A stretch of DNA of 34,301 nucleotides. Source: a virus. Position 1 is the stretch's first letter; the number at the start of each line of letters is the position of its first letter. The stretch is from the IMG/VR virus record IMGVR_UViG_3300021519_000034, positions 1 to 34,301 of that record; one strand, 5' to 3'. Under the pieces are notes generated by a model. That model was given only the letters and a program-made list of their open reading frames with translations. It ran no database searches and was not told the DNA's origin. A program made the position numbers and the translations under genes. Positions 20,224 through 22,716 of this stretch are shown here, piece after piece.

Positions 20224-20570
20224 TGCTCTACTCCTTTTTGTGCCGGTATTTTTATTCCCGCATGATGAGAAGCCGCGTTTAACCAATCCAACCATTCAGA
20301 AAACCGCTTTTTACCGTAACGGCTTGTCCTTCTGCCTAACATCACGACCCCGCCCTCAAGTCCTGGTGCAAGTCTGGGTGCTGTTTCGCCCTCAAAGGTC
20401 GCAGTCAGTACGTCCTTCCATTCCTCGTCGTTCAGCCAGCACATAACCCCGTTTATAGGCCATTGTTTTTGTTCAGCCCATGCTCGCAAAATAGGCCATT
20501 GCAAAGCGTTTTGCCCTGCGTTTCTCCGTTCCTCGCAAACTGGGCATAAGGTTACAAAAGCAATTGTCAT
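20220..20570 (-). CDS. ninB: NinB-family recombination protein
   Basis: 116 residues from ATG at 20570 (overlapping the methyltransferase stop as ATGA). The segment ALQWPILRAWAEQKQWPIN and the later LNDEEWKDVLTATFEGE, PRLAPGLEGGVVMLGRRTSR and WLDWLNAAS are hallmarks of NinB (Orf), the lambda protein that replaces RecFOR and binds ssDNA and SSB. It fits with ERF, YqaJ, Ref and VRR-NUC in this phage. It lies directly downstream of the two-frame methyltransferase region. Confidence 0.9.
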   Translation of the reverse strand: MTIAFVTLCPVCEERRNAGQNALQWPILRAWAEQKQWPINGVMCWLNDEEWKDVLTATFEGETAPRLAPGLEGGVVMLGRRTSRYGKKRFSEWLDWLNAASHHAGIKIPAQKGVEQ

Positions 20571-21228
20571 TTCAGTAGCCTCCATGCTGTTTCTGCCACT
20601 CTTGGAATTTGTCCATTTCCAATGGCTTTAAGTCTGTCCATTCTAGCGGCCACCCCATTAGCCACTCGACCCACGGCGGGTTCAATTGGCCAGAGTTTTG
20701 ATCCACCGATTGACTGAGCATTATTTGTTTCCCCATTGCAACTCTCCGCTGAATAGAAGGGTTGCTCATATTTCCCCGATCCCGATTGTCGGATGCTTGA
20801 GGTGTCGGAAACTTCCGCATTGCTACCGTAGCCGCTAATGTTGGCGTTTTTCTGAGGAATTCCGCTGGATATGCTGCTTCTTTTGCATTGTGCGCTGTTG
20901 GAGTAGGCCAATTTTCCATGCGTTTCTTGAGTGCTTTCCGACTGTTGCTTCCCCCGTCCAAGCCCCCTGTCGTTGGCGTGTGGAAGAAAGTTTCGTTGTT
21001 CGGCTCTGATCCAAATTCGCTCTCTAAGATGGGGCGCACCGACGTCTGCCGCTGATACAACTCCCCATTTTGCATCAAACCCCAACGCGGCAAGGTCACA
21101 GAGGACGGTTTCAAGTCCTCGAATAGTGAGCATTGGGCTGTTTTCAATGAATGCGTACTGGGGTCGTACCTCCCCAATAATCCTTGCCATGTGTTTCCAC
21201 ATGGAACTTCTGCTTCCAGTAATGCCTG
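20567..21228 (-). CDS. Methyltransferase C-terminal half in the alternative frame (needs 8 or 11 G)
   Basis: This frame holds the missing parts of the cytosine methyltransferase: SSMWKHMARIIGEVRP, the ENSP motif (AFIENSPMLTIRGL), GAPHLRERIWI and the closing AIGNGQIPRVAETAWRLL. It is joined to the N-terminal half only if the G-run at 21229-21238 is read as 8 or 11 G; then the protein would be about 305-306 residues. Its TGA overlaps ninB as ATGA. It may be made by ribosomal or polymerase slippage, by phase variation, or the frameshift could be a sequencing error. An internal ATG at 21202 could also start the fragment. Confidence 0.8.
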
Positions 21229-21486
21229 CCCCCCCCCCGCAGAGCTGATGTCCTGGCAGGGAAACCCGCCAGATACGACATCAACAATGCCTCGCCACGG
21301 TTTTCCGTCAAAGGTTTGAACGTCATCCCAAATCGGGAAAGGCGGGAAAATGCCGTCATTTTGTCTTGCGACAAGTACGCTTGCGGGGTAGGGTTCCCAT
21401 TCAACGGCACAGACGGTTCGCCATCCCAAGAGTTTTCCTCCGAGTATGCCTCCACCAGCGCCTGCGAAAAGAGCCAGCTCATTCAT
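20572..21486 (-). CDS. Cytosine-5 DNA methyltransferase N-half fused to an overlapping conserved-looking frame
   Basis: As given, ATG at 21486 (ATGA overlap with the upstream gene) reads motif I (LALFAGAGGGILGG) and motif IV (GGFPCQDIS, catalytic Cys77), then the run of ten G. At ten G it enters a second frame, open to 20572 (304 residues in all). That frame does not contain MTase motifs but has RYDPSTHSLKTAQCSLFEDL, TLPRWGLMQNGELYQ, repeated TPT/TPQ motifs and QLNPPWVEWLMGWPLEW, a pattern I recall from phage methylase-associated proteins. So both frames look selected. As read, this product lacks motifs VI, VIII and X and is unlikely to methylate DNA by itself. Confidence 0.75.
   Translation of the reverse strand: MNELALFAGAGGGILGGKLLGWRTVCAVEWEPYPASVLVARQNDGIFPPFPIWDDVQTFDGKPWRGIVDVVSGGFPCQDISSAGGGQALLEAEVPCGNTWQGLLGRYDPSTHSLKTAQCSLFEDLKPSSVTLPRWGLMQNGELYQRQTSVRPILESEFGSEPNNETFFHTPTTGGLDGGSNSRKALKKRMENWPTPTAHNAKEAAYPAEFLRKTPTLAATVAMRKFPTPQASDNRDRGNMSNPSIQRRVAMGKQIMLSQSVDQNSGQLNPPWVEWLMGWPLEWTDLKPLEMDKFQEWQKQHGGY
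21229..21238 (-). repeat. Ten-G homopolymer inside the methyltransferase gene
   Basis: The minus strand has GC followed by ten G and CAGGCATT, directly after the catalytic PCQDISSA segment. Runs of this length are prone to slipped-strand changes and to RNA polymerase slippage, and also to base-calling or assembly error. Ten G puts translation in the overlapping frame; a count of 8 or 11 restores the full methyltransferase. Confidence 0.95.
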
Positions 21487-21791
21487 ACCTCCCCAAACAT
21501 TTCTTGCTGGCCTCGTTTTATTGCAAACCAAATACGGCACATACGTCCAGTAGCGCCTTTAGCTTTGCCTTCAGTTTTTACTAGATTTAAACTTTCCAGC
21601 TCACTCATTCTTCTGGCAACTTGGTTTGCATCTAAGCCAGTTCTTTCCGCAATATCGTAAATAGTGCCGGGTTTATTTAAAGCGCAAATAATTATGAAAT
21701 GATGGTGTTCTGCAAGATTGACTGCTTGTGCAGCCGCCGCATGACTTGTTTCAGGATCATTAGTTCTAACTCGCGGAAAAAACATTTTCAT
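21483..21791 (-). CDS. Winged-helix DNA-binding protein
   Basis: 102 residues. After a Ser-His-Ala-rich start (NDPETSHAAAAQAVNLAEHH) the sequence has a winged-helix layout: IIICALNKPGTIYDIAERTG, LDANQVARRMSELESLNLVK and a wing around TEGKAKGATGRMCRIW. Such small MarR-like proteins are common in phage early regions; they may control transcription or assist replication. It is coupled to the methyltransferase by ATGA and to the upstream gene by 4 bases. Confidence 0.8.
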   Translation of the reverse strand: MKMFFPRVRTNDPETSHAAAAQAVNLAEHHHFIIICALNKPGTIYDIAERTGLDANQVARRMSELESLNLVKTEGKAKGATGRMCRIWFAIKRGQQEMFGEV

Positions 21792-21970
21792 TTTTCTTCC
21801 CCCAAAAAGTTAACAACGTCTAAAGCTGTGGATAACTTTAACGACTTCAAAACGCTTGGCAATAACTTAGGTTCTGTTTTTTTAATGCCAACCAGCGTCA
21901 TTGCTTTCGACTGCACACCGCAATTCTCCAAACACCTAACCCAATCTTCAATTCTGTTAGCGGGTTTCAT
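21788..21970 (-). CDS. Small hypothetical protein (60 aa)
   Basis: 60 residues starting MKPANRIEDWVRCLENCG and ending LDVVNFLGEEK; basic in the middle, mostly helical. It overlaps the DUF1376 gene by 4 bases and the winged-helix gene by 4 bases, so it is very likely translated. It lies where lambdoid phages carry a partner of the replication initiator, but it is too short to be a helicase loader of known type. No family recognised. Confidence 0.65.
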   Translation of the reverse strand: MKPANRIEDWVRCLENCGVQSKAMTLVGIKKTEPKLLPSVLKSLKLSTALDVVNFLGEEK

Positions 21971-22716
21971 CGCTTATCCCAACAAGCCGAACACATCTTT
22001 CCGCTTTGTGTTTCAACAAACCCTTTCATAACCCCCTTGCAAACGCAACAGGAGGGCTTAGGCGGGGCGATCGAGGGCTTCCCCTGCCCTACCCCTTGCT
22101 TGACCTCAAAAAGCCCACTCCAGCCGTTCTCGACGCTTTGCGTGATTATTGCGGAAATGTCCTTTCCTTCAGCTTTCCATCGTTCAAGTTTATTTATGGC
22201 GGCGGTTTGTGCCGTTGCCGTTAGGGGTTTGCGCGATTCTTTCCGGTGCTGGGTGTAGGTTTGCCAGCTTGCAGGAAGCCAATCCGGTGCTTCAGCACCT
22301 GCGGGTTTGACTTTAAATTGGTTAACGGTTAACGGTTCTCGGTTAGTGGTTAGGGTTATTTTGGGTTCGGCTTGGGTTAGCGGTGGGTTAGCGGTGGGTT
22401 TTGTCTTAGGTCTGCCGCCTTTGATTCCATTGGCTTTTTGCTTTTCAAGGAAAGCATGATAAGCGGCAATTTCACCGTCTGCTCGCTTGTTACGATAGCC
22501 AGAATCGGTGTATTCAAAGAACTCGTCCAGCACCAATTTGATGGTATCTGGATCAATTCTTAACCTACGGGAAACCCGTGGGATATCGGTGGGTATTGGC
22601 GTTTCGGTATCGTAATAAATATCTAAAAGCCGACGATAGGCAATATCTTCTAATGGCGAAAGATGCGCCGTGTGCTTTAGATAATCGCCAATGTTGAACT
22701 GATAATAGAACAACAC
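21967..22716 (-). CDS. DUF1376 replication protein (O-like), with C-terminal zinc finger
   Basis: 249 residues with a GTG start at 22716 and a strong ribosome-binding site (GAAGGAGATT). The N-terminal DUF1376 domain is clear: YYQFNIGDYLKHTAHLSPLE, DIAYRRLLDIYYDTETPIP and a winged-helix-like continuation RRLRIDPDTIKLVLDEFFEY. A linker rich in Thr, Asn, Glu and Pro (about 105-135) is encoded by GGTTA-type repeats. A C-terminal zinc ribbon is formed by CCVCKG and MCSACW. DUF1376 proteins take the place of lambda O in many phages and bind the origin; this role is inferred. The start lies inside the closing stem of the upstream leader RNA. Confidence 0.88.
   Translation of the reverse strand: MLFYYQFNIGDYLKHTAHLSPLEDIAYRRLLDIYYDTETPIPTDIPRVSRRLRIDPDTIKLVLDEFFEYTDSGYRNKRADGEIAAYHAFLEKQKANGIKGGRPKTKPTANPPLTQAEPKITLTTNREPLTVNQFKVKPAGAEAPDWLPASWQTYTQHRKESRKPLTATAQTAAINKLERWKAEGKDISAIITQSVENGWSGLFEVKQGVGQGKPSIAPPKPSCCVCKGVMKGFVETQSGKMCSACWDKR
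22320..22403. repeat. Iteron-like GGTTA repeats inside the replication gene (candidate origin)
   Basis: On the plus strand the stretch has GGTTAACGGTTAACGGTT, then GGTTAGTGGTTAGGGTTA, then GGGTTAGCGGT twice with a 1-base overlap of context (period 12). All vary around a GGTTA core. They encode the low-complexity linker of the O-like protein. Lambda-type origins lie as iterons inside O, in the linker region, so this is a strong positional match. Binding by the O-like protein is inferred. Confidence 0.6.

Follow-up and report, generated by a model that had tools for sequence, protein, structure and literature searches.

The locus and its reading frames

We studied a 34,301-nt stretch of viral DNA (in the following called the window, i.e., the whole stretch), in which a gene for a C5-cytosine DNA methyltransferase (MTase) lies on the minus strand. 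Within this gene we find a run of ten G (C10 on the plus strand), and the window holds no longer homopolymer. The features of the locus are as follows.

21488..21494, minus strand: GGGGAGG, Shine-Dalgarno-like by sequence; spacing of 5 nt to the second ATG and of 1 nt to the MTase ATG
21239..21486, minus strand: MTase N half, start ATG at 21486, motif I to PCQ; Cys77 codon at 21256-21258
21144..21482, minus strand: ORF from the second ATG (21480-21482, MSWLFSQAL); 112 aa long at 10 G, where the tract takes it out of its own frame
21229..21238, minus strand: G10 tract, just past the PCQ loop; at 10 G it joins the MTase N half to the second frame
20567..21228, minus strand: MTase C half including stop, with ENSP, RERIW and IGNGQIP; out of the N-half frame in the window record
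20572..21228, minus strand: conserved second-frame C part including stop, with LPRWGLMQNG, WPTPTA and LNPPWVEWLMGWP; located at the same places in relatives; +1 to the MTase
20572..21486, minus strand: hybrid ORF P0001, 304 aa, open at 10 G; the MTase N half continued by the second-frame C part

Motif I and the PCQ catalytic loop share one frame in the window, as in C5-cytosine MTases of PF00145, and positions 21226-21486 match both PF00145 and phrog_363. The preliminary description had placed the G10 tract after PCQ, with Cys77 as the catalytic residue; this location is exact (directly 3' of FPCQDISSA) and Cys77 is correct. Its expectation that ENSP, RERIW and AIGNGQIP would follow in frame at 8 or 11 G is likewise borne out, where 5, 8, 11 and 14 G all fit. 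At the 10 G of the window, ENSP, RERIW and GNGQ are not in the PCQ frame, while they are in frame in the near relative L017 as well as in most other relatives. The C half itself (P0002, taken from 21238) matches PF00145 (E 2e-12) and phrog_363 (E 3e-34). The homopolymer length within the coding region thus sets the reading frame.

With regard to the statement that the gene leaves the MTase frame at the tract, only the first part of the story was told: the MTase frame is indeed lost, but the reading stays open for 218 codons beyond the tract, in a frame that is conserved in relatives, and stops 5 nt before the MTase stop. The length of the tract alone is weak evidence, since runs of eight or more G are no great rarity when the whole window is shuffled (mean 1.17; the observed number of 3 was equalled in 19/100 shuffles). 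The same codon position is, however, hit again in relatives, which argues for a non-random tract.

Upstream of the MTase, two minus-strand regions (21483-21791 and 21967-22716) match phrog_1123, whose function is unknown, and primosomal/O-like replication proteins.

The second frame and its conservation

Using each frame alone as a tblastn query, we found that the two frames coincide in position in nearly all relatives examined, with similar scores. Identities are 54% (MTase frame) and 60% (second frame) for L065, and 55% and 82%, respectively, for L021. The second-frame C part of the window (P0003) matches phrog_1008 with an E value of 8e-27, the matching stretch being 20572-21225 on the minus strand.

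The second frame is open beyond what the first protein would leave to chance. Over the C half, we counted 79 stops in the +1 frame of 86 distinct loci vs. 383 from synonymous shuffles, most of the 79 being the ORF's own end. No such depletion is seen in the other off-frame of these 86 loci (1113 observed vs. 1087 from synonymous shuffles), nor in 26 other genes of the window that served as control (401 observed vs. 405 in synonymous shuffles). The depletion is found with and without the tract: leaving out the last 12 codons, the +1 frame of 226 loci holds 34 stops vs. 500 expected where the tract is present and 19 vs. 269 where it is absent.

Selection on the second protein can be followed in the substitution pattern of close pairs. 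Differences at MTase codon positions 1/2/3 distribute as 26/9/65% in the N half, i.e., as in an ordinary gene, and as 46/18/36% in the C half. The latter is expected if both frames are constrained, because third positions of the MTase are second positions of the other frame. Naive dN/dS values, which are biased in overlapping genes and therefore used for the contrast between halves only, are 0.13 (N half) and 0.53 (C half) for the MTase and 1.23 (N half) and 0.43 (C half) for the second frame. Purifying selection on the second protein is found in its C part only. The second protein is thus constrained in its C-terminal two thirds, with an N part that is kept open without conservation of its sequence.

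The second frame has its own start. In 182/207 loci, the MTase start is followed 4 nt later by a +1-frame ATG (window sequence: ATGAATGAG). MTase starts vary more than this second ATG, being ATG, GTG, TTG or placed further upstream. From the second ATG to the tract, each segment holds fewer stops than expected (12/86, 10/57 and 2/137 observed/expected). Start codon and spacing to GGGGAGG, a putative Shine-Dalgarno site, fit translation of the predicted second protein. In Klebsiella phage BUCT711 (L006, 2011-2691), the MTase is annotated from an internal start, and the N-half match begins 165 nt upstream.

The nature of the second protein was approached by structure prediction, which yielded no confident fold (pLDDT 52 and 58 for alignments of 63 and 102 rows, from which rows of annotated records were left out). 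A sequence search of the PDB with the second frame gave no match, and its tail matches neither a methyltransferase nor any other family in Pfam or NCBIfam. A long variant (L020, 564-1900) carries extra WPTP-type modules in the second frame, the number of which varies among relatives.

Breadth of the overlap

When bacterial genomes were scanned with the second protein, 80 loci were kept (Pseudomonas, Acinetobacter, Halomonas, Burkholderia, Nitrosomonas, enterobacteria, Verrucomicrobia and others), presumably prophages. An MTase is found in the overlapping frame of all of them (80/80). Since these loci were picked via the second frame, they test the MTase and not the second frame. For the same reason it is a weak point that the second frame is open in four bacterial genomes whose MTase frame is interrupted (L336, L353, L371, L394).

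Distant phage C5-MTases (Mycobacterium, Paenibacillus, Stenotrophomonas and E. coli P2-like) also carry +1 ORFs of 192-315 codons, lengths that were not exceeded in 300 synonymous shuffles. For the Paenibacillus phage, an internal gene was listed by the depositors.

The family PHROG_1008, labelled 'DNA methyltransferase', is matched by the second frame of L081 (E 2.7e-34). PHROG_1008 seems to be built on the overlapping frame. Its label was probably inherited from the overlapping gene, because the second frame itself is without a methyltransferase match in Pfam or NCBIfam.

The G tract in relatives

Among 94 loci not chosen by their tract, 16 (window included) show G7 or more at the tract site. 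When tract-directed scans are added, a tract of G7-G17 is present in 161/241 distinct loci, with varying sequence forms (GCGGGG..., AAAGGGG..., CTGGGG...). Elsewhere in the same genes, G7 runs are few (7 in 178 kb). The preliminary description had named relatives with a broken tract as evidence against its reading. The tract is absent in most relatives, yet a tree of 206 loci requires at least 34 gains or losses of it; in this tree, tract loci are oversampled and recombination is left out of the model.

We sorted the loci by the frame that the site dictates. The 161 tract loci divide into 114 in the MTase frame, 30 that are one G short (as the window) and 17 in the third frame, while the tract-less loci are all in the MTase frame (80, with 0 one short and 0 third). 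Thus, 47/161 tract loci vs. 0/80 tract-less loci are out of the MTase frame. On the tree, such out-of-frame states occupy tip positions. The numbers of one-short and third-frame loci are not clearly different from equal and therefore do not demonstrate a function of the hybrid.

Tract lengths, all of them read from assembled contigs, in which long G runs are error-prone, also differ between otherwise identical relatives. The contigs L145/L306 have G15/G13 and are otherwise identical over 6687+1598 nt (8.3 kb), L157/L300 have G14/G15 with identity over at least 1746+4167 nt (5.9 kb), and L122/L124 have G10/G8 with identity over 1495+1401 nt (2.9 kb). Near relatives that share the window's tract flank read G11 (L017) and G10 (L015). 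The pair L269/L272 was rejected as a length difference, since it differs by a substitution at the tract's end; the count of 16 length-differing pairs, which wrongly includes it, is thus slightly too high.

For the proposed phase variation by slipped-strand mispairing this means that the variable length is well supported in relatives, both by otherwise identical contigs and by the off-frame fraction. The further idea of methylation being plainly switched on and off does not hold, because the frame entered at 10 G is that of a second conserved protein.

Interpretation and alternatives

We consider it likely that the locus is a dual-coding gene with a slippage-prone tract, in which replication slippage has switched off the MTase of the window while the second protein's conserved part is retained in the hybrid. 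Here, a C5-cytosine MTase and a second protein, starting at an ATG 4 nt downstream in the +1 frame, would form an overlapping pair on the same strand. A G run has arisen in many lineages at glycine-rich codons just past the catalytic PCQ loop, and its length would be altered by slippage of the replication machinery. Slippage at homopolymer tracts in replication is established in bacteria and would be the simplest and natural cause of the length change.

Which proteins the phage is able to make probably depends on the G run. At the canonical tract length, both full proteins could be made. With one G less, as in the window, the MTase would be off, the MTase start would lead into the hybrid with the second protein's conserved part, and reading from the second ATG would run into the stop after 112 aa. 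With one G extra, neither conserved C half would be joined to its own N half. We infer that both frames are expressed, that switching within a population is reversible and that the products, including a working hybrid, have functions. Taken one step further, the tract would be a three-state switch on two overlapping proteins (both on, second only as working hybrid, neither), a possibility that we hold to be tentative and rather doubtful. If true, the phage would trade DNA methylation against another function via slippage at one site.

The differing tract lengths could also be errors of assembly or sequencing, such that dual coding is real and each phage has one fixed length with the MTase in frame. 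The contigs are metagenomic, runs of ten or more G are hard to size, and among the longest ones (G12-G17) 12/25 are off frame. However, off-frame states also make up 16/36 cases at G8-G9, a length that short reads resolve well (G10-G11: 18/99), which argues against an error rising with length as the whole cause. Also L122 and L124 are two G apart with otherwise identical flanks. Altogether, we regard a pure length error as unlikely. Only little less credit goes to the idea that the tract is used for transcriptional slippage, raised as an option in the preliminary description, or for ribosomal frameshifting, which would yield the N-C enzyme and the N-A hybrid from one DNA length. In its favour stands the long homopolymer inside a gene with two usable downstream frames. 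The lengths differ already in the DNA, though. Moreover, the second frame starts from a conserved ATG of its own and is conserved just as well in relatives without the tract, so transcriptional slippage is not needed for the second protein.

Two further readings deny the second protein or the gene as such, and we think both very improbable. If the tract were an ordinary on/off phase variation of the MTase and the open second frame a by-product of codon use without product, the prevalence of MTase-on tract states (114/161) would be natural, and the second product is indeed a predicted one for which modelling gave no confident fold. Against this speak the depletion of stops relative to synonymous shuffles, which is absent in the 26 control genes, and the substitution pattern, in which the C half alone shows slower third and faster first positions of MTase codons; in addition, the second frame is intact in some genomes with a broken MTase frame, among loci that were found by the second frame. 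A decaying pseudogene, for which the window's G10 is a dead-end frameshift, would agree with the out-of-frame MTase of the window record. Against this, both frames are otherwise intact to their ends, the same tract is found at G11 (L017) and G10 (L015) in relatives, and out-of-frame states are placed at tree tips.

Relation to known systems

Phase-variable methyltransferases and overlapping phage genes are both already known kinds. Repeat tracts control ModM of Moraxella (PMC6902483), and poly-G tracts form the phasome of Campylobacter (PMC6321876). As in these systems, a repeat tract within the coding region sets the frame by its length, which differs between otherwise identical genomes. In contrast to the bacterial type III Mod enzymes, we deal with a phage C5-MTase, and its off frame encodes a conserved protein, i.e., a slip swaps the C half instead of just truncating the enzyme.

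Overprinted genes of phages and other viruses (reviewed in PMC8227390), such as olg1/olg2 of Pseudomonas phage Fc02 (PMC9936078), likewise draw two proteins in different frames from one DNA stretch. Unlike in the cited cases, the overlap here is on the same strand, near full-length, within an enzyme gene, and spread across phages and bacterial-genome loci of several phyla. In the open literature searched, we found no description of an overlapping frame in C5 MTases, which is a weak sign of novelty.

A widespread phage methylase family appears to encode two proteins at once, and the second has been given the first one's name. Where overlaps are avoided, an annotation pipeline has to choose one protein at the expense of the other. 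Both proteins are linked by the recurring G tract, such that phages in different tract states provide a natural test of the second protein's role. Phages may use DNA methylation against host restriction, and the switching proposed here would show that phages, and not bacteria alone, use slippage tracts on DNA methylation.

The nearest case that we found in the literature are the ShiLan-type hidden HNH insertions in mycobacteriophage methylases (PMC11855218), which also place an out-of-frame ORF inside a phage DNA methylase gene. These are mobile inserts, while the frame described here consists entirely of the methylase's own DNA.

In L014 (around 2130-2500) as well as in L022 and L017/L180, the MTase gene carries an HNH-endonuclease-like ORF, inserted close to the gene's end and in a third frame. 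In L014, L022 and L017, the second frame runs into GNGQVP; taking it as an MTase C-terminus itself was rejected, since this join is made by the HNH-like insertion. The insert sits around EPxVG|RVADG, splits both frames and resembles the hidden HNH inserts of PMC11855218.
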